The notes beneath the pieces were generated by a model that was not told the origin of the DNA, ran no database searches, and saw nothing but the letters and a program-made list of their open reading frames with translations. From positions 1-32,074 of the forward strand of contig CALVWU010000012.1 of assembly GCA_944367955.1 (NCBI GenBank): a stretch of 32,074 nucleotides of DNA. Reading direction: 5' to 3'. The translations under genes were made by a program, and so were the position numbers. Positions 14,201 to 32,074 of the stretch are shown in pieces. Origin of the DNA: an uncultured Clostridia bacterium (GTDB lineage: Bacteria; Bacillota; Clostridia; Christensenellales; Borkfalkiaceae). How positions within the stretch are numbered: position 1 is the first letter of the stretch; every line of letters begins with the position of its first letter.

Positions 14201-15349
14201 ATGCAAAGCCAAAGTGTTTATAAAAGTTTTGCCCAAAGGTGCGGCGGCGGGGCGCGTGTGGGTGTGGTTTGTCCCTCGGGCGAGCTTTTCGCCCGCGCGT
14301 TCAACGAAGCATGCGGAGAGGAGGGGATAGAATTTTGCGACGGAGCCGCAACCTGCAATGCCGCCGTGTTGGTGCTTTCCGGCCCGCCCGTCGGCGAGGA
14401 CGCCGCAAACAGTCTTGCCGCACTCGTCGCCCGCGGCCTGCCGTGCGCGGTGCTGTGCAAGCAGCTTCCCGACGGCTTGCAATCCGATTTCGGCTCGGTT
14501 CCCTGCATGGCAATAGATCCCGCTTCACCCGATAAAAACAGACTCGAAGAAGAGTTATCCGCCCTTTTGATGCAGTTTCCCGTCGAGCGCATAGATATTG
14601 CCGTTCCCGCATGGGTGCGCTCTCTGCCCGCCGAAAATTCGGCCGTGGCCGAATTGACGGAGCGTGTACGCGCATGCGTAAAGGATATCGAAAAAATGTG
14701 CGACTGTACCCGTCTTTCGTCTCTTTTAAGCGGCAGCAAAAACTGGCGGCAGGATGTAGAGCTTGAACTGTTTCCGCATAGCGGCAGGGCGCGCGTCACG
14801 GCAAAAATTTGCGACGGCGCGTTCTTTAACATGCTCAGCGAAACCGCGGGCGAAAGCATAACGGACGAAAGTTCGCTGATGACTTTTGCTGTATCCGCGG
14901 CGCAGGCCCGCGCCGAATACGGCAAAATTAAAGACGCACTCGAATGCGCGCGCGAAACGGGTTACGGCATAGTCGTTCCAAGCGACTGCGACATGACGCT
15001 CGAAAAACCCGCCGTTGTAAAGCAGGGCCAAAACGTGGGGATAAGATTAAAGGCCGCCGCGCCCAGTTACCATATTATAAAAGTGGATGTCTGCGGCGAA
15101 GTAAGCCCCATGCTCGGCAATACTGCCAGGTCTGAAGAGATGGTAAACGAAATTATAGGCGGCTTCGATTCCGACCCGCAGGGCATGTGGAACACAAACC
15201 TCTTCGGCAGGTCGCTTCGTTCCATGGTGCAGGAGGGGCTGAACGGCAAAACCGACGGCATGCAGCAGGATACCCGCATAAAGCTTCGCAAGGCGCTAAC
15301 GCGCATGGTAAACGAAGGCAAGGGCGGGGTGATATGCATATTGCTGTAA
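14201..15349 (+). CDS. SpoIVA-family spore coat base protein lacking the ATPase P-loop
   Basis: 382 residues, against about 492 for SpoIVA. In B. subtilis SpoIVA hydrolyses ATP and polymerises around the forespore as the coat platform. The C-terminal two thirds follow SpoIVA closely: TGYGIVVPSDCDMTLEKP, VGIRLKAAAPSYHIIKVDV, WNTNLFGRSLRSMVQEGL and the terminal NEGKGGVICILL. At the N-terminus the family pattern (FKDIAERTGG then GVVG-x-VRTGKST) survives only as YKSFAQRCGG then GVVCPSGELF (residues 7-30): no Walker A Lys or Ser/Thr. The segment with the Walker B and VDCVGY region, about 110 residues, is gone. It is therefore probably a non-hydrolysing paralogue. RBS AGGAGG at 14190-14195 supports the ATG. 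It stands alone after the ribosomal operon, and its stop codon abuts a repeat element. Confidence 0.82.
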   Translation: MQSQSVYKSFAQRCGGGARVGVVCPSGELFARAFNEACGEEGIEFCDGAATCNAAVLVLSGPPVGEDAANSLAALVARGLPCAVLCKQLPDGLQSDFGSVPCMAIDPASPDKNRLEEELSALLMQFPVERIDIAVPAWVRSLPAENSAVAELTERVRACVKDIEKMCDCTRLSSLLSGSKNWRQDVELELFPHSGRARVTAKICDGAFFNMLSETAGESITDESSLMTFAVSAAQARAEYGKIKDALECARETGYGIVVPSDCDMTLEKPAVVKQGQNVGIRLKAAAPSYHIIKVDVCGEVSPMLGNTARSEEMVNEIIGGFDSDPQGMWNTNLFGRSLRSMVQEGLNGKTDGMQQDTRIKLRKALTRMVNEGKGGVICILL

Positions 15350-15406
15350 ATGTTGTCGCGCTTAACGGCGGAATGAATCCGCCTTGCGCACACAATAATT
15401 TTTATT
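15348..15406. repeat. Distal part of a 188-190 bp multi-hairpin repeat unit
   Basis: This segment, starting on the last bases of the spoIVA-like stop codon, matches 31789-31847 and 31979-32037 with few differences. It includes the hairpin GGCGGA-ATGAA-TCCGCC at 15367-15383 followed by TTGCG and an AT-rich linker. Confidence 0.85.
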
Positions 15407-15594
15407 AACGCAAGTTTCGGCTGGCGACGCCTGCAACTTGCCGTTAGTTGAGGGCTCTGCCCTCGCGGGCGCAATCTTTACGTGCCCTGCATCATATAAT
15501 TGCGCCCGCTTCACCCGCTGAGGCGCAGGTATGCGCAAATTGAGTCCGCTTGCGGGGAAATGAATTCCCCTTGCGACGTTATTATTTTTGAATT
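15407..15594. repeat. Complete 188-bp multi-hairpin repeat unit
   Basis: It contains in order: hairpin GCAAGTT/AACTTGC (15410-15441) with a 15-bp tip; GAGGGC-TCT-GCCCTC (15450-15464); a long-loop stem GCGGGCGCAAT/ATTGCGCCCGC (15465-15509); GCGCA-GGTA-TGCGC (15523-15536); and GGGGAA-ATGAA-TTCCCC (15554-15570). Order, spacing and several loops equal those of the units after glnN, while most stem sequences differ and remain paired. Confidence 0.85.
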
Positions 15595-15730
15595 AATGCA
15601 AATCTCGGCAGGGATGCCCTGCGGCAGGGTTCCGCGAACGAGCGTTATTGCATTGCACAGCCTGTTGCGCGGCCAGCGGAGTTTAAACAATATATCCATG
15701 CCGCGCAGCGCGCGCAGGCTTGGCCGAGCA
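15595..15730. repeat. Composite repeat: start of another unit fused to an inverted second family
   Basis: It begins like the multi-hairpin unit (AATGCAAATCTCG and a 15-bp tip, GCAGGG-ATG-CCCTGC, at 15608-15622). It then switches to sequence whose reverse complement resembles 22496-22600, sharing blocks such as GCTGCGCGGCATGG and GTGCAATGCAATAA. No coding region is supported between 15350 and 15917. Confidence 0.7.
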
Positions 15731-15774
15731 CCCTTTTATTGCTTTTGCAATACCAAAATTCGACATGAACGGCG

Positions 15775-15804
15775 TGGGCGGCGGCGCATATGCGCCGCCG
15801 CCCA
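15775..15804. repeat. Perfect 30-bp palindrome centred on GCATATGC
   Basis: All 15 positions pair around the centre between 15789 and 15790. The arms are almost pure G/C (GGGCGGCGGCG). It directly abuts the next palindrome. Confidence 0.9.
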
Positions 15805-15834
15805 TGTTATTTGCCGCATATGCGGCAAATAACA
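15805..15834. repeat. Second perfect 30-bp palindrome centred on GCATATGC
   Basis: All 15 positions pair around the centre between 15819 and 15820, with unrelated arms (GTTATTTGCC). It starts on the base after the first palindrome ends. A further stem, GCGCCG-CATA-CGGCGC, lies at 15874-15889. Confidence 0.9.
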
Positions 15835-15917
15835 ATTATCTGCCGTGCATATGTTGCTTAAAGCATATGTCGTGCGCCGCATACGGCGCGGAATATGCCT
15901 CAATTTAGCGGATTTTG

Positions 15918-16070
15918 TCAGCTTTCGCCGTGCTCTCCTTTCTTGATTTCGGCGGCCTCGTCCGCTCTGTCCTTTTCGGCCATTCCGACGGCCGCGCCCG
16001 CTTTAAGCGCGGTGATATACTCGTTGTACTGCTCGTCGGTCAGTTTTTTGATCTTGTGCTTTTTCGACAT
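15918..16070 (-). CDS. Small hydrophilic protein, 50 residues, unknown function
   Basis: ATG at 16070 is preceded, six bases away, by a perfect GGAGGTGA (16077-16084 on the minus strand), one of the best ribosome binding sites in the window. The 50 residues begin MSKKHKIKKLTDEQYNEYI and are rich in Lys, Glu and Ala. They are predicted to be helical, without signal peptide or membrane segment. It lies 121 bp after serA on the same strand and is preceded by a strong hairpin. I do not recognise the family. It could be co-transcribed with serA by read-through or have its own promoter. Confidence 0.6.
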   Translation of the reverse strand: MSKKHKIKKLTDEQYNEYITALKAGAAVGMAEKDRADEAAEIKKGEHGES

Positions 16071-18939: not shown

Positions 18940-21900
18940 ATGGGTGTAAACAACAACGGTTCGGGTCAGACCAAGGCAGATCTTCTTTTATCCAAGGTCG
19001 AAAAGCTGGCTCAACAAAACAGAACGCTTGACGCAAAGGTCGAACAGCTCGCCAGACAAAACCAGACCGTGGTGGCGCAAATCGCCCAGCAGTCTAACTC
19101 GGTAAGCTCAAACGTCGCAAGAATATCGCAGGCCAACGATGCGGTAGGCAAGCAGATAGCGCGGCTAACCGAGCAGAACAACGCGGTGCAAAAAAACTTT
19201 GCCGCGCTGGCCTCTCAGGGAAAAACCGTCGAAGGCAAGGTGCAGGAAGTCATCGACTCCGCCATCGACAGGGAAATGGATCGCGAAGCCATCATGCGCA
19301 AGATGGAGGCGGATAAAAACGAACTGCTGCAACAGCTCGACTACATGTCCGCCCAGTCGCAGAGCGTATACTCAAACGTCGTCAAAACCGTTGGCGGCGG
19401 AAATATCAACGTCGACGAACTCGCCGCAAAGGTGGCCGAAAAGATCAACGTGCCCCAGGGCGAAACCGACTATGAACGCCTTGCCGAGGAGGTTTCAAAG
19501 CGCATAACTCTTCCTCAGCAGAGCGAAGTCGAAATCGATTACGAACGCCTTGCCGAGGAGGTGGCAAAACGCATGCCTTCCGCGCAGCCCGAAATCGATT
19601 ACGACGAACTCGGCTCCCGCGTGGTCGAAAACATGTACATACCTTCGGCCCTCGTCGAGGATATCGATTACGATACTCTTGCCGAAAAGGTGGCCGCAAA
19701 GCTCACGGTAGGTACTCCCGAAATCGACTATGATACACTTTCGCAAAAGGTGGCCGAACTTCTGTATATTCCCGAAGCCGTGGTCGAAGACGTCGATTAC
19801 GACGAGCTTGCCAAAAAGCTTGCCGACAATCTTCCCGCCGAAGAGGTCATCTCTCCCGATCAGATAGCCTCCAAGGTGGCCGAACAGATAGTTCTGCCCC
19901 AGGTAGACGAGGAATCGCTTGCCGAACGCATCGCCGGCAAGATAGTCATTCCTCAGGCAACCGCACAGGAGATCGATGAACAGTCGCTTGCAGAGCGCAT
20001 CTCCGGTCTTATAGTTGTGCCTCAGCCTTCTACCGAAGTGGATGCCGACGCTGTTGCCGAAGCGTTGGCCGAAAAACTCGATATAACCGTCGACAACGAA
20101 GAGATAGCCGACCGCATCGCAAAACAGGTTGGCACGATAGCTCCCGAACAGTTCGACGTTATGGTGGACGAAGACGGCTGCGATTCGCTTGCCAAGGCGG
20201 TCGAAAGCAAGCTCGACTACGACGCGATCTCCTCTGCCGTGGCCGAAAAGCTGGCTGCCGCAAACGTATCCGGCGAGCTTGACAGCGAAGAGCTTGCAAC
20301 GGCCGTGGCCGAAAAGCTCAATGTCGAAAAGATAAACGAAGACGCGCTTGCAGACAAGGCGGCCGCCGTTCTTTCCAACTACATCCCCGAAGTCGACAGC
20401 GACGAAATAGCCGAAAAGGTAGCCGCTGCGGTAATTCCTTCGCTGCCCGCCGCACAGGTGGATACCGAAGCCGTAGCTTCGGCCGTGGCCGAAAAGATAG
20501 CCGCCGTCCAGCAGGATGTCGATTACGATATAGTTATAGACGAGGACGGCATAGGCAAGATAAGCACTGCCGTGGCCGAAAACTTGAAGCCCGAACTTGA
20601 AGCCGACCGCGACATCGTTGTGGATGAAGAGGGCGTTTCGGCCATCTCCGAAAGCGTTGCTCAAAAGGTTCGCGCGGGCGTTGCCGAAGAGGTCGCCCCC
20701 GTACTCGAATCCGCAAACGGCGACGTAAGCGTAAGCGAAGACAGCGTAAACGCCATCTGCTCCGCCGTTTCCGACAGGGTGCGCGACAACATTACAGAAG
20801 ATATAATTCCCATCCTCGAATCCGAACACGACATATCGGTAGACGAAGAGGGCGTAAACAGAATAAGCGAAATAGTAGCTCAAAAGGTTCGCGAAAGCCT
20901 TTATAACGAAATTAAGGCCCAGTTCGATGCCGACCGCGACATTGTCGTGGACGAAGCGGGCATCAACGAAGTGGCCAAATCGGTTGCAAGCAATTACAGC
21001 TACGACGACTATTTCCGCAAGCTCGAAGAAGATATAGCCGAATTAAAGGCCATGGCTTCCGCGCCCGCTCCCGAAAAGGAAGAGGATTTGGATGTCGTTA
21101 TCGACGATGAAGGCGTAAACGAAATCACCGACATCGTAACCGAAAAAGTAGCTCAAAACTACGATGACCGCATCGATAACATTCAAAAAGAAATCGAAGA
21201 GATCAAGGCCATGCTCGCCGCAGGCGTAGTAACCGCCGTTGCCGCCGAAGAGCTTGCTCCCGCAGCCGCCGAAGAGGTCGTTGAAGAGACGGCCGAAGAA
21301 GAGCAGCCCGAAGAGGTTGTCGAAGAGGCAGCGGAAGAAGAGCAGCCCGAAGAGGTCGTTGAAGAGACGGTCGAAGAAGAACAGCCCGAAGAGGTCGTTG
21401 AAGAGACGGCCGAAGAAGAACAACCCGAAGAGGTTGTTGAAGAGACGGCCGAAGAAGAGCAGCCCGAAGAGGAAGAAGAGCTTGTAACCGTAAGCGACAT
21501 CGTTGAAGAACAGCCCGAAGACGAAGAGGGCGGCGACGACGTTATAGAAGAGATAGTCGACGACATCGATGAAACGCCCGTTGAAGGCGAAGTCATGCCC
21601 GACGGTATACCCGGCATATCCAATACCGGCGTCGATTTCGCCAACATGATGAAGTACAACCGTTCGTTCATTGCAAGAATAATTCAAAGCACCGACGAAC
21701 AAAAGAGGTACTACGGTCAGGTTAAAAACGCGTTGCTTGCATACAAGAAGGTAAACTCCAACATTGCATGGGGTGCCGAACGCTTCAACAAGGGCCGCGA
21801 AACCATCGCCCGCTTCAAGATCCGCGGCAAGACTCTCTGCCTGTATCTCGCGCTTGACCCCAACGAGTTTGCAACAAGCGTATATCATCAGGTTGACGTG

Positions 21901-22116
21901 TCCGACAACAAGTCGATGCACGGTACGCCCATGATGGTAAAGATTAAGAGTCCTCGCGGCGTTAAAAAGGCAATCAGGCTCATCGATATAATGCTTGCCA
22001 AGCGCGACGGCGTAAAGCGTGAAATAGTAGAACGTGACTATGCCGCAATGTATCCTTACGAAACTATCGAAGAACTCATCGAAGAAGGTCTCGTAAAGGA
22101 CGTAAGCAAAAAGTAA
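18940..22116 (+). CDS. Large coiled-coil and acidic repeat protein with conserved C-terminal domain
   Basis: 1058 residues, no signal peptide or membrane segment, strongly acidic. Residues about 10-130 form a heptad-like coiled coil rich in Gln and Asn (KVEKLAQQNRTLDAKVEQLA). Residues about 150-720 carry more than a dozen short repeats built on the pattern DYDELAEKVAEKL, alternating with DIVVDEEGVxxISExVAxKV. Residues 777-841 are five near-identical 13-residue repeats (PEEVVEETAEEEQ type). The C-terminal 160 residues look like a folded domain (YNRSFIARIIQS, IRGKTLCLYLALDPNEF). I have seen this domain in uncharacterised Clostridial proteins but know no function for it. RBS GAGGTG before ATG 18940. 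A scaffold or cell-shape role is only a guess. Confidence 0.7.
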   Translation: MGVNNNGSGQTKADLLLSKVEKLAQQNRTLDAKVEQLARQNQTVVAQIAQQSNSVSSNVARISQANDAVGKQIARLTEQNNAVQKNFAALASQGKTVEGKVQEVIDSAIDREMDREAIMRKMEADKNELLQQLDYMSAQSQSVYSNVVKTVGGGNINVDELAAKVAEKINVPQGETDYERLAEEVSKRITLPQQSEVEIDYERLAEEVAKRMPSAQPEIDYDELGSRVVENMYIPSALVEDIDYDTLAEKVAAKLTVGTPEIDYDTLSQKVAELLYIPEAVVEDVDYDELAKKLADNLPAEEVISPDQIASKVAEQIVLPQVDEESLAERIAGKIVIPQATAQEIDEQSLAERISGLIVVPQPSTEVDADAVAEALAEKLDITVDNEEIADRIAKQVGTIAPEQFDVMVDEDGCDSLAKAVESKLDYDAISSAVAEKLAAANVSGELDSEELATAVAEKLNVEKINEDALADKAAAVLSNYIPEVDSDEIAEKVAAAVIPSLPAAQVDTEAVASAVAEKIAAVQQDVDYDIVIDEDGIGKISTAVAENLKPELEADRDIVVDEEGVSAISESVAQKVRAGVAEEVAPVLESANGDVSVSEDSVNAICSAVSDRVRDNITEDIIPILESEHDISVDEEGVNRISEIVAQKVRESLYNEIKAQFDADRDIVVDEAGINEVAKSVASNYSYDDYFRKLEEDIAELKAMASAPAPEKEEDLDVVIDDEGVNEITDIVTEKVAQNYDDRIDNIQKEIEEIKAMLAAGVVTAVAAEELAPAAAEEVVEETAEEEQPEEVVEEAAEEEQPEEVVEETVEEEQPEEVVEETAEEEQPEEVVEETAEEEQPEEEEELVTVSDIVEEQPEDEEGGDDVIEEIVDDIDETPVEGEVMPDGIPGISNTGVDFANMMKYNRSFIARIIQSTDEQKRYYGQVKNALLAYKKVNSNIAWGAERFNKGRETIARFKIRGKTLCLYLALDPNEFATSVYHQVDVSDNKSMHGTPMMVKIKSPRGVKKAIRLIDIMLAKRDGVKREIVERDYAAMYPYETIEELIEEGLVKDVSKK
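21268..21462 (+). repeat. 39-bp in-frame tandem repeat, five copies
   Basis: Units begin at 21268, 21307, 21346, 21385 and 21424 and encode 13 residues each, mostly Glu, Val and Thr. Copies differ mainly at synonymous sites and at one Ala/Val position. The low divergence makes this a likely site of copy-number variation. Confidence 0.9.
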
Positions 22117-22169: not shown

Positions 22170-22780
22170 TAGTGCATTGCAAAATTTTACAAAGTACGGC
22201 AAGATTCCGCATTGCAACGTCGCGTCGGCAAACTCCGCTTTAAGCAAGCAGCACAGATTGTCATCCTGAGTGTAGCGACCGCAGGGAGCGCAATCGAAGG
22301 ATCTGGCAGGGTTACAATAGGGTTTGTGTATAGGAACGCGGGCATTATTGCATTGCAACTACTTCGCGGCGGCCTAAGCAGATTCTTCGACACGCCGCAT
22401 GCGCGGCGGCTCAGAATGACATCGCGGTTGTCCGCGGAATGGGTTTGGTAATGTTATAATACCCGTTCGCGGAATAAGGTAGCGGCGACACGCCGTCGGC
22501 GAAGCCTGCGCACGCTGCGCGGCATGGTTATATTATTTATAAACCCTGCTGTCCGCGGAATAATGTTGTGCAATGCAATAATGCTTGTTCGCGGAATAAG
22601 GCAGAGCGGACACCGCTCTCGCGGAATCTGATGCAACGGAACGTTGCCGGAACAAGGCAGCGGCGACACGCCGCTCTGTCATCCTGAGCGAAGTGCCGAG
22701 CGAATAGCGAGGCGCGAAGTCGAAGGATCTTGCAGGATTGCAATAGTGCGGTTGTATTAAAACGGCGGCACGGTTTCAAT
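22170..22780. repeat. Intergenic mosaic of palindromic repeat families, no gene
   Basis: This 600-bp gap contains at least three families. ACA-loop stems lie at 22483-22495, 22603-22619 and 22659-22675. GTCATCCTGAG with TCGAAGGATCT brackets 22260-22304 and 22678-22730, and an inverted variant with ATTCT/AGAAT lies at 22380-22420. A block at 22496-22600 is related to the reverse complement of 15620-15725. GCAACG-GAA-CGTTGC lies at 22633-22647. Short open frames here are translations of repeats and have no ribosome binding site. Confidence 0.75.
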
Positions 22781-29528: not shown

Positions 29529-31610
29529 ATGAACGTACCTCAGATGTTCGGCGAAAACGTCTTTAACGACGCCGTACAAAAAGAAACGCTGCCCAAGGAA
29601 GTATACAAGGCTTTAAGGGCCACTATCGAGTCGGGCAAGCAGCTCGATGTGTCCATTGCCGGCACGGTTGCCGCCGCAATGAAGGACTGGGCCGTTTCAA
29701 AGGGCGCAACGCACTACACGCACTGGTTCCAGCCCCTTACGGGCCTTACTGCCGAAAAGCACGACAGTTTCATCGAACCCGAAGGCGACAGGGTAATAAT
29801 GCGTCTTACGGGCAAGAGCCTTATAGTGGGCGAATCCGACGCCTCGTCTTTCCCTTCCGGCGGCTCGCGTTCGACGTTCATGGCCCGCGGCTACACCGCG
29901 TGGGATCCCACTTCGCCCGCATTCGTAAAGGAGGGTACTTTATACATTCCCACCGTTTTCGTGTCGTATACCGGCGAAACGCTCGATAAAAAGTCGCCCC
30001 TGCTCCGTTCCATGAACGCCATCGACAAGCAGGCCAAGCGCATATTAAAGCTTTTCGGCATAAACTGCAAAAAGGTTTCAACCACGGTCGGGCCCGAACA
30101 GGAGTATTTTATCATCTCCAAAGAGATGTACGACCGCCGCAAAGATCTGCGTCTTACCGGCCGCACGCTCATCGGCGCGCCCGTCAGCCGCGGACAGGAG
30201 CTCGAAGACCACTATTTCGGCGTACTCAAACCCGCCATTGCCGAGTTTATGGCCGACCTCGATAAAGAGCTGTGGTCTTACGGCATACCCTCAAAGACAA
30301 AGCACAACGAGGTTGCCCCCGCCCAGCACGAAATGGCACCCGTGTTCTCCACCACAAACACGGCGGTCGATATGAACATGCTCACCATGGAAATAATGCG
30401 CAAAGTCGCCAAAAAACACGGGCTTATCTGTCTTTTGCACGAAAAGCCCTTCCGCGGCATAAACGGTTCGGGCAAGCACAACAACTGGTCTATGTCCACC
30501 GATAACGGCTTCAATCTGCTCGATCCCGGCCCCGCGCCCGAAAAGAACACTCTTTTCAAACTTATTCTTGCCGCCGTTGTAAAGGCGGTGGACGACTATC
30601 AGGGTATTTTAAGGGCTTCTGTGGCCACGGCGGGCAACGATCACCGTCTCGGCGCAAACGAAGCTCCCCCTGCGATCATCTCGGTATACCTCGGCGACCA
30701 CCTCGGCGCGCTCGTCGATTCCATTGTCAAGGGCGAAGACTTCGTTACCGATAAAACTTCGCTCGAAGGCTCTATCGGCGTTCCCGAATCCCCCATATTC
30801 CCCAAGGATGCCACCGACCGCAACCGCACTTCGCCCTTTGCTTTCACGGGCAACAAGTTCGAGTTCCGCATGCTCGGCTCCCAGGCCAACGTGTCCGATC
30901 CCAACATTGTGCTCAATACCATAGTCGCCGACGCCTTCGAACAGTTCGCCGACGAGCTTGAAGGCAAAAAGGATATCGAAAGCGCGGCAAACGCCATATG
31001 CGAGCGTGAACTCAAAGCTCACTACCGCATCATATACAACCTCGACGGCTACGGCCCCGAATGGGAGCCGGAGGCGGCAAAGAGGGGGCTGCTCAACTAC
31101 AAAAATACGGCCGACGCCGTGCCCGTATGCTTTGAAGATAAAAACATTCAGGTGTTCGTAAGACAGGGCGTATACACCAAGGCCGAAGCTATCGCCCGCG
31201 CCAATATTCAGCTCGAAAATTACACAAAGATAATCAATATCGAGGCGTTGACTCTGTTAGAGATGGCCAAGCAGGATATAATCCCCGCCGTTTCCGACTA
31301 TGTGGCTTCGCTCTGCTCAAACGTCGCCGCAAAACAGGCTGTAAACGACTCCATTCCCTGCAATACCGAACGCGACCTTATAATGAAACTTGCAGGCTAC
31401 AACGACGAACTTTCGTCGCTGATCGGCAAGCTCGAAGACGTTCTGGGCGGGATAGTGATGGAAGAGGTGATTTCGGCCTCGCAAGCCATGGCGCACAGCG
31501 TAATTCCGCTCATGGAGCAGATGCGCACCGTTATCGATTCCATGGAAAAGATAACCGCCGCCGATTATTGGCCCTATCCTTCATATTTCGATCTTCTGTA
31601 CAGCGTGTAA
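29529..31610 (+). CDS. glnN: Glutamine synthetase type III
   Basis: ATP-dependent synthesis of glutamine from glutamate and ammonia, the main entry of ammonium nitrogen. The 693-residue length is that of the GSIII class, against about 450 for GSI. Class motifs are MFGENVFNDAV at the start, HYTHWFQPLTGLTAEKHDSF, SFPSGGSRSTFMARGYTAWD, VGPEQEYFII, HNEVAPAQHEMAPVF and HEKPFRGINGSGKHNNWS. Monocistronic with a strong promoter. The gene end is followed within six bases by the decaying start of a repeat array. Confidence 0.97.
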   Translation: MNVPQMFGENVFNDAVQKETLPKEVYKALRATIESGKQLDVSIAGTVAAAMKDWAVSKGATHYTHWFQPLTGLTAEKHDSFIEPEGDRVIMRLTGKSLIVGESDASSFPSGGSRSTFMARGYTAWDPTSPAFVKEGTLYIPTVFVSYTGETLDKKSPLLRSMNAIDKQAKRILKLFGINCKKVSTTVGPEQEYFIISKEMYDRRKDLRLTGRTLIGAPVSRGQELEDHYFGVLKPAIAEFMADLDKELWSYGIPSKTKHNEVAPAQHEMAPVFSTTNTAVDMNMLTMEIMRKVAKKHGLICLLHEKPFRGINGSGKHNNWSMSTDNGFNLLDPGPAPEKNTLFKLILAAVVKAVDDYQGILRASVATAGNDHRLGANEAPPAIISVYLGDHLGALVDSIVKGEDFVTDKTSLEGSIGVPESPIFPKDATDRNRTSPFAFTGNKFEFRMLGSQANVSDPNIVLNTIVADAFEQFADELEGKKDIESAANAICERELKAHYRIIYNLDGYGPEWEPEAAKRGLLNYKNTADAVPVCFEDKNIQVFVRQGVYTKAEAIARANIQLENYTKIINIEALTLLEMAKQDIIPAVSDYVASLCSNVAAKQAVNDSIPCNTERDLIMKLAGYNDELSSLIGKLEDVLGGIVMEEVISASQAMAHSVIPLMEQMRTVIDSMEKITAADYWPYPSYFDLLYSV

Positions 31611-31615
31611 AATAT

Positions 31616-31668
31616 AACCGCAAAGTTTTTAACGCAAAGATGTTAACGCAAAAAGGTTAACGCAAATC
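31616..31668. repeat. Four short direct repeats of the unit's left end
   Basis: AACGCAAA-type segments begin at 31616 (AACCGCAAAG), 31631, 31645 and 31659, spaced 15, 14 and 14 bp. The last one opens the first complete repeat unit. Confidence 0.75.
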
Positions 31669-31847
31669 TCGGCAGGCCGTGCCTGCGATTTGCCGTTATT
31701 TGAGAGGCTCTGCCTCTCTTGCCGCGATATGTTTTAGCCCACGGTTTACTAAATCGCGGCAATTCACACCGGCGAGCCTGCTTCGCAGCAAATGTTGTCG
31801 CGCTTAATGGCGGAATGAATCCGCCTTGCGCACACAGTAATATTATT
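31659..31847. repeat. Multi-hairpin repeat unit 1 after glnN (189 bp)
   Basis: Hairpins in order: GCAAATC/GATTTGC (31662-31693) with tip GCAGGC-CGT-GCCTGC; GAGAGGC-TCT-GCCTCTC (31702-31718); TTGCCGCGAT/ATCGCGGCAA (31719-31762) with a 24-base loop; CTGC-TTC-GCAG (31778-31788); GGCGGA-ATGAA-TCCGCC (31809-31825). It ends in an AT-rich linker. No plausible gene. Confidence 0.9.
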
Positions 31848-32037
31848 AACGCAAATCTCGCCTTGTGGCGGCTGCGATTTGCCGTTATTTGAGAGGCTCT
31901 GCCTCTCTTGCCGCGATATGTTTTAGCCCACGGTTTACTAAATCGCGGCAATTCACACCGGCGAGCCTGCTTCGCAGCAAATGTTGTCGCGCTTAATGGC
32001 GGAATGAATCCGCCTTGCGCACATCATTATTTTTATT
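31848..32037. repeat. Multi-hairpin repeat unit 2 after glnN (190 bp)
   Basis: Nearly identical to unit 1. It differs in the 15-bp tip of the first hairpin (CCTTGTGGCGGCTGC instead of GCAGGCCGTGCCTGC) and in the terminal AT-rich linker. Confidence 0.9.
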
Positions 32038-32074
32038 AACGCAAGTTTTGGCTGGCGACGCCTGCAACTTGCCG
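32038..32074. repeat. Start of a third multi-hairpin unit, cut by the window end
   Basis: It begins AACGCAAGTT and carries the tip GCTGGCGACGCCTGC with arm AACTTGC. It matches the unit at 15407 rather than the two units next to it. The array continues beyond the window. Confidence 0.85.

Follow-up and report, generated by a model that had tools for sequence, protein, structure and literature searches.

IS200/IS605 elements have hairpins at their ends, make no target duplication and follow a single-strand logic. In attC sites, the stems vary from one site to another, while the fold and an extrahelical base are kept. Recognition of folded single-stranded DNA is described, in passages of PMC8266576, for TnpA-REP, IS200/IS605 and IntI, and the same passages report that TnpA-REP recognises such DNA with its bulge, its loop and a tetranucleotide. 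For REPIN hairpins, a section of PMC3116915 reports compensatory changes as common; going by that section, the principle of compensatory change is already known.

The element analysed here was found in a stretch of 32,074 nucleotides from an uncultured Clostridia bacterium, called hereafter the window. Like the REP, BIME and REPIN sequences (TnpA-REP/RAYT), it is mostly intergenic, multi-copy, palindromic and mobile. Unlike REPINs, it is made of five hairpins, its copies differ by wholesale replacement of stems, and a third strand covaries with one of the stems. Its genome is also without a Y1/RAYT transposase, unlike those of REP and REPIN sequences, and the tetranucleotide that lies 5' of these (mostly GTAG) has no equivalent in the 30 nt preceding 116 copies, where no position exceeded 0.62 bits. 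With IS200/IS605 ends the element shares end hairpins, the absence of a detectable target duplication and a near-fixed start, (T)TCAC or TTAAC. It differs from them in that its start pairs into hairpin A, in that the Y1 transposase domain (Y1_Tnp, PF01797) occurs in only 28 of 93 genomes of the genus, and in that no version with a long ORF was present among 349 loci: the search for one between the same ends gave 11 split matches, the longest stop-free insert being 85 codons and one insert being N-masked. A Y1 transposase was rejected as the resident mover, since the domain was absent from the element's own genome (G000); it was also absent from G002, G102, G108, G014 and G107. Genomes rich in copies did not have it more often: with at most 28 candidates scored per genome, it occurred in 8 of the 25 genomes where 20 or more copies were counted, versus 20 of the other 68.

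A classical MITE would differ from the element on two points, as here no duplication signal is seen and the end hairpins, A and E, are not alike. Like attC sites, the element has variable stems with a conserved fold and a conserved unpaired base, and in the lineage of the window its foot is TAAC/GTTA. Unlike attC sites, most copies in the genus have TCAC/GTGA feet, no gene cassettes were seen, and no integrase was found above the cut-off. An integron was rejected on this last result (TIGR02249, 0 of 93 genomes); weaker matches to integron integrases occur in 87 of the 93 genomes, as they do in all 14 control genomes. Finally, the element resembles the structured RNAs of Rfam by its covarying multi-hairpin fold, and departs from them by the lack of a clear G-U preference and of an Rfam match on the element. 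The best reading is that it works like REPINs, IS200/IS605 ends or attC sites, yet fails defining features of each. No description of the five-hairpin element, of its extent, of the lack of wobble preference or of the third-strand relation was found in searches of one open-access library.

Anatomy of the element and its copies in the window

The unit is about 185 nt long and consists of five hairpins, A-B-C-D-E, with AT-rich ends. All copies in the window lie on the forward strand. Copy 1 (15405-15587) is located downstream of a SpoIVA-like gene (14201-15349, Pfam) and matches positions 1-187 of the covariance model R1 with 175.6 bits (E 2.7e-45). The first-pass annotation had placed the start of this unit at 15407, about 2 nt late: it opens with TTAAC at 15405.

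Hairpins A, B, C and E were positioned from coordinates and DNA folding, D from coordinates and a pattern scan. Hairpin A (15406-15446) has a foot, TAAC/GTTA, one unpaired C adjoining the foot, a long stem (in copy 1, GCAAGTT at 15410-15416 with AACTTGC at 15435-15441) and a variable tip. Hairpin B (15450-15464) reads GAGGGC-TCT-GCCCTC. It is followed directly by hairpin C (15465-15509), in which GCGGGCGCAAT (15465-15475) pairs with ATTGCGCCCGC (15499-15509) around a 23-nt loop. The segment 15510-15540 contains a linker beginning TTCACCC, the D hairpin GCGCA-GGTA-TGCGC (15523-15536) and CAAAT. Hairpin E (15554-15570), GGGGAA-ATGAA-TTCCCC, precedes an AT-rich 3' tail that extends to about 15587.

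Copy 1 abuts, on its 5' side, a truncated copy (15345-15404) that retains the 3' part with hairpin E, GGCGGAATGAATCCGCC; it was detected as direct repeat D3 and as a weak model match at 15279-15400 (E 0.0033). After copy 1, a partial second A hairpin (15593-15625) was detected as direct repeat D12 and by matches of the own genome running into it. A second copy of hairpin A, complete or cut, also follows the elements of L101, L169 and L232, as well as copies in the own genome.

Two further complete copies stand in tandem downstream of glnN (29529-31610, glutamine synthetase III, Pfam): copy 2 at 31657-31842 (R1, 140.9 bits, E 4.1e-36) and copy 3 at 31846-32031 (R1, 146.6 bits, E 1.2e-37). They differ at 13 of 189 positions, seven of which are in the tip of hairpin A and six in the AT-rich tail, with none in stems B, C, D and E. 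The start of a fourth unit (32035-32074; direct repeat D3, sequence) is cut by the end of the contig. Short direct repeats of TTAACGCAAA lie directly 5' of some elements or arrays, at 31616-31660 in the window and also in L005, L019 and L023.

In the units after glnN, the A stem is GCAAATC/GATTTGC (31662-31668/31687-31693 and 31851-31857/31876-31882), and the other stems are GAGAGGC-TCT-GCCTCTC, TTGCCGCGAT/ATCGCGGCAA and GGCGGA-ATGAA-TCCGCC. All the stems that had been quoted from these units and from the one at 15405-15587 are thus present. Folding two window units as single-stranded DNA gave z scores of -5.28 and -6.21, the latter for copy 2, and for each none of 200 shuffles was as good. 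ORFs of 110-135 codons overlap the element (15067-15594 on the reverse strand, 15500-15832 on the forward strand) and are taken as due to chance.

Distribution of the element

The repeat unit is real and wider than had been reported from the window, where there are three complete copies. A BLAST search of the own genome with two queries gave 23 and 26 places, partial ones included. A covariance model built from 35 copies matched 80 of the genus's 93 genomes, including the own one, in a survey where at most 28 candidates were scored per genome with filters stricter than in the following count. When six genomes were counted more deeply, with up to 150 candidates each, 11, 4, 51, 32, 59 and 63 matches were obtained.

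From an order-wide draw of 151 genomes, seven matched, three of them in the own genus (own genome included) and four in genus g27 of the same family, whose matches were weaker; the 144 genomes without a match include at least two of the same family (G133, G193). A pattern for the D motif was present in at least 118 stretches of a species-genome collection, and the 80 matches listed came from metagenome-assembled genomes of Clostridia, Clostridiales or Eubacteriales, several of them Candidatus Coproplasma. The element belongs to Candidatus Coproplasma and, in diverged form, to a second genus of the same family, so that its occurrence, as seen so far, is limited to one group of uncultured Clostridia. 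The g27 loci L117, L111, L119 and L123 contain shorter relatives, with hairpin A, CAAATTG and hairpin E kept and different middle parts.

Cargo of phages or plasmids was rejected, as one copy used as query gave no match in phage or plasmid collections; the exact D-motif pattern was likewise absent from viral contigs. A fixed partnership with spoIVA was also rejected, as only three of 30 spoIVA loci examined carry the element within about 1.5 kb. A spoIVA protein match is found in 84 of the 93 genomes, and G002, outside the 30 loci, also has the element beside this gene.

Sites and mobility

Orthologous sites were sought by an all-against-all comparison of 319 loci. Comparison of junctions gave 105 records; in 33 of them an element was detected in the partner, and in 72 none was. 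Loci are counted repeatedly in these numbers, and comparisons within the own genome are included. Among the junctions listed, orthologous sites without a detected element are exemplified by L071/L234, L101/L267 and L058/L238 (in the last, a small gene differs too), and by element L190 relative to the window region of the own genome, L290. Opposite orientations at a shared site were found, among the same junctions, for L106/L108, L063/L127, L074/L087, L157/L228 and L232/L258, and the same orientation for L187/L244 and L107/L246. Since orthologous sites can be empty or occupied in the opposite orientation, the element moves.

For the 87 solo copies out of 116, no target duplication was detected: the shared string averaged 4.30, versus 4.20 when flanks were re-paired, and 30 of 200 re-pairings reached as high a mean. 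The flanks exhibit only weak A-rich and G preferences. Of 96 copies examined, 78 had no long overlapping ORF and 18 overlapped a predicted ORF of at least 100 codons by more than 100 nt. By simple ORF calls, the flanking genes of the 94 that could be classified were ++ for 39, -- for 24, +- for 20 and -+ for 11.

Stem pairing is maintained by changes on both sides

The first-pass annotation had claimed that stems change on both sides with pairing kept, and this held across the family. In an alignment of 35 copies made by sequence only (A1), pairing is kept in 93.8% of 1532 cells, and both sides have changed in 37 of the 44 pairs. Sliding the partner by 1-3 columns lowered pairing to 37-44%. 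The covariation score was 0.591, versus 0.180 after shuffling and at most 0.130 after sliding, and the RNAalifold energy was -103.8, versus -2.9 to -9.8 in five column-shuffled alignments. The larger alignments are fitted to the model, and only A1 is free of such fitting.

R-scape had been proposed as the check; we ran a home-made test of the same kind, a G-test with APC in which substitutions were re-placed on a FastTree tree to give 10 null alignments. With 116 structure-fitted copies, it returned 22 column pairs at E<=0.05. Of these, 20 are from the 44 proposed stem pairs, 24 of which thus stayed below threshold, and two connect column 139 with either side of one B pair. Every hairpin has at least one significant pair: genus-wide, at least nine A pairs are above the null, C and E covary, and B and D have one pair each. 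In L057, L064 and L071 the C loop looks, by eye, well able to form a pseudoknot with the 5' strand of E, but no column pair for this was above the null. Overall, it is Watson-Crick pairing that is conserved in the stems, and the sequence itself in the loops, the linkers and the unpaired C.

Wobble pairs are not favoured

Covariation is usually taken as proof of a functional RNA. Selection on one RNA strand should tolerate G-U and not A-C. Among 5092 stem cells of the element, we counted 21 G-T, 38 A-C and 133 other mismatches; 88 further copies gave 42, 33 and 181 in 3809 cells. As a control, the acceptor and T stems of 66 tRNAs, from examined loci in this genus and in other families of its order, contained 55 G-T, 6 A-C and 7 other mismatches in 792 cells. 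The comparison of 21:38 with 55:6 gives 3e-10 in a Fisher test, with the reservation that the tRNA set was filtered on standard pairs, which removed 2 of 68 and slightly boosts G-T; the model that picked the element copies also favours G-T. Between copies less than 10% apart, one-sided changes produced 21 G-T and 24 A-C, in comparisons that are not independent.

This absence of a preference for wobble pairs argues against ordinary RNA selection. Because G-T is not clearly better tolerated than A-C, unlike in tRNAs, what folds is probably a DNA strand and not an RNA; the fold would be selected either as DNA or on both strands. The element is a large natural family with strong stem covariation in which wobble is not favoured, so that the fold appears selected as DNA.

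Linker letters covary with hairpin B, a possible third strand

The linker that joins hairpins C and D contains alignment columns 137-139, whose letters vary with the B pairs 64-66 in parallel register. Genus-wide, it is the first three pairs of B that covary with three linker letters, which by alignment columns correspond to C15512, A15513 and C15514 in copy 1. Where the third pair is G-C, the linker letter is C in 70 of 71 cases; for C-G it is A in 21 of 22, and for A-T it is T (12) or A (10). At the first position, taking the letters of the A-T side, A goes with A in 87 of 91 cases and G with C in 18 of 22. The 18 combinations of columns 64-66 with columns 136-141 were tested after the pattern had been seen, on structure-fitted alignments: the three in-register pairs were equalled or exceeded in 7, 11 and 0 of 1000 tree simulations, only 66/139 (0/1000) being strong alone, and one out-of-register pair (65,136) in 24 of 1000. 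The in-register pairs had 11, 3 and 16 branches with change in both columns.

The code derived from this first set was tried on the 88 further copies, of which 67 were usable and 21 unreadable by a fixed rule. Agreement was found in 51 of 67 copies at position 1 (shuffles 31.7, maximum 41) and in 56 of 67 at position 3 (shuffles 33.7, maximum 44), position 2 being invariant. In these copies C-G goes with T (9) more often than with A (5), so the code looks looser than the first set implied. C over a G-C pair in parallel register recalls a Hoogsteen triple, and by this analogy the linker may contact hairpin B as a third strand.

A mobile element, probably recognised as folded DNA

The element is multi-copy and mostly intergenic, is present or absent and in either orientation at orthologous sites, and has whole hairpins mixed between copies. 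Our main reading, to which we give somewhat better than even odds (about 0.55), is that it is a non-autonomous mobile DNA of about 185 nt, recognised as a folded single strand by an enzyme acting in trans. The selected form would be one DNA strand, folded when it becomes single-stranded, at the replication fork or in an excised circle. The enzyme would read shape, loops and the unpaired base rather than stem sequence and would move the element without target duplication, a mobilising step that we infer. New stem versions would spread as blocks by recombination between copies. The anatomy of the element fits recognition of folded single-stranded DNA: loops, unpaired C and linkers are fixed, paired stems are free, the end hairpins are unlike, and no target duplication is detected. 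In most carriers the enzyme would not be a Pfam Y1_Tnp protein, nor would it be an integron integrase. Weighing against this reading are the absence of a Y1 transposase from the own genome, flanks with no more than weak letter preferences, the 18 of 96 copies that overlap predicted ORFs and the close likeness of some orthologous copies.

A bolder and distinctly more tentative proposal, which we hold to be doubtful, is that these copies form a mobile element of a new class, in which the unit under selection would be a three-dimensional fold of single-stranded DNA (five hairpins and a parallel third-strand contact), read by shape and loops, with stems free to change if compensated. If true, the family would be a DNA counterpart of a structured RNA family. 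If the main reading is right, the copies constitute rich data on how folded single-stranded DNA is recognised, offer a definite starting point for seeking a new enzyme in uncultured Clostridia, and call for caution in automated RNA discovery in metagenomes.

Resident copies and a possible host function

Between species, intergenic elements sometimes resemble each other more closely than the neighbouring genes do (L100/L249, L199/L230, L102/L266). L100/L249 differ at 3 of 186 positions in a region of 91% identity, and one L199/L230 pair at 3 of 188 in a region of 82% identity. Nine 100-nt windows touching an element were 97-99% identical for six and 86-92% for three, and flanking windows were mostly 76-97% identical, with a wide range. 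Orthologous close copies can therefore be more alike than idle mobile DNA predicts, which may reflect either a host function in place or exchange between species.

Such likeness is one reason to consider that the copies serve the host where they stand, as bidirectional terminators, insulators or binding sites for nucleoid proteins or topoisomerases, both strands having to fold. If the fold were needed on both strands, G-T and A-C would be avoided alike, as is observed, and by eye many A hairpins of the genus have an A-tract, a GC-rich stem and a T-tract. However, the A hairpins of the own lineage are, by eye, without a T run, and a scan of 15300-15950 for an intrinsic terminator (GC stem and T run) found none, with 1.5 expected from shuffles, so that a terminator in the window copy was rejected. 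Relatives have the same sites without the element, and the loop sequence is fixed on one strand. We therefore regard host function as an unlikely explanation of the family.

How stems change

Among close copies, with 2-5% divergence at unpaired positions, two-sided changes affected 1.3% of pairs and one-sided changes 0.97% (7 comparisons); at 5-10% divergence the values were 5.1% and 1.6% (76 comparisons). The two-sided excess grows with distance, and changes gather in one helix at a time. Mixing of modules by the four-gamete test was detected in three of four genomes tested (G000, G002 and G102, and not G108, which has 8 copies). Clustering of the changes in single helices and the four-gamete mixing together indicate that hairpins are exchanged as blocks.

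Nine pairs at the same site and in the same orientation were found. Three of them are clean and close, with differences at 13 of 296 unpaired positions, versus 1 one-sided and 2 two-sided changes in 128 base pairs (binomial P 0.002, a value that omits the two-sided changes). In L385/L440, L387/L433 and L451/L419, 44-49% of unpaired positions differ, and these may be independent insertions; in L405/L434 and L406/L439 the figure is 25-28%. L199/L230 are orthologous copies in which a different tip has replaced that of A and most of the remainder is identical. Between L102/L266, one C pair switches between A-T and G-C on both sides, and hairpin A contains an insertion. In L230, L266, L200, L168, L254, L281, L138, L134, L236 and L238, hairpin B is either replaced or interrupted, at one and the same position, by another hairpin module, about 120 nt long, whose own hairpins also look compensated.

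The first-pass annotation had left two causes for the compensating stems, selection on a folded single strand or copying of one arm from the other. Under the second, stems would be kept by quasipalindrome template switching and not by selection of the fold. Template switching is reported to make and mend hairpins in part of PMC8794818, and both the excess of two-sided over one-sided changes between close copies and the replacement of tips as blocks, in adjacent and in orthologous copies, are what it would give. Exchange between copies explains block replacement equally well, however, as hairpin types occur in new combinations. Inversion of the spacer is a known outcome of template switching between repeat arms, according to a passage of PMC8604942; yet a loop in exact reverse complement was found in 0 of 116 copies for each hairpin, an exact-string test whose result is telling chiefly for loops B, D and E, which have few letters. 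Copying also leaves aside the conservation of the unpaired loops, linkers and C. Moreover, it does not predict the covariation of columns 137-139 with stem B, as these letters are outside both arms. Selection on a folded single strand is thus the better supported of the two causes, and copying as the sole cause is rather improbable. Arm copying or conversion may nevertheless contribute, given that helices and tips change as whole blocks. With this family it becomes testable whether new stems arise step by step, through arm copying or through the exchange of entire hairpins.

A structured RNA as a possible reading

G-C pairs with C as third strand also occur in RNA triple helices. The least probable reading is that of a structured non-coding RNA or mRNA element, in which the covariation would come from selection for the way one RNA strand folds: the complex five-hairpin fold with its conserved loops, the C accompanying G-C pairs, and copies that by eye begin a few letters past a stop codon (L058, L060, L074) speak for it, but G-T is not clearly above A-C as it is in tRNAs, copies lie in all orientations to the neighbouring genes, a genome can have tens of them, with presence and absence at orthologous sites, and no Rfam family matches the element. 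Known RNA families were rejected, as Rfam gave none at the gathering threshold in the window, and the matches obtained at E<=10 in four loci, a low threshold, lay off the element. As regards the features of functional structured RNAs, stem covariation goes beyond phylogeny and no preference of G-U over A-C is seen.

Other repeats in the window

Other intergenic palindromic repeats are present at 15593-15830 and 22200-22770, of the TTCCGCGAACG...TTCCGCGG and GCGGCGTGTCGCCGC types, as inverted copies about 6.8 kb apart; repeats of both types are also found beside or inside some elements of the own genome. A TGTCATCCTGAG...GAAGGATCT repeat, a motif that is presumably widespread in bacterial genomes, has two diverged copies in the window, at 22256-22330 and 22680-22745. 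Finally, an ORF of 1058 codons (18940-22116) contains degenerate internal repeats, with a 39-nt tandem repeat near 21230-21511.
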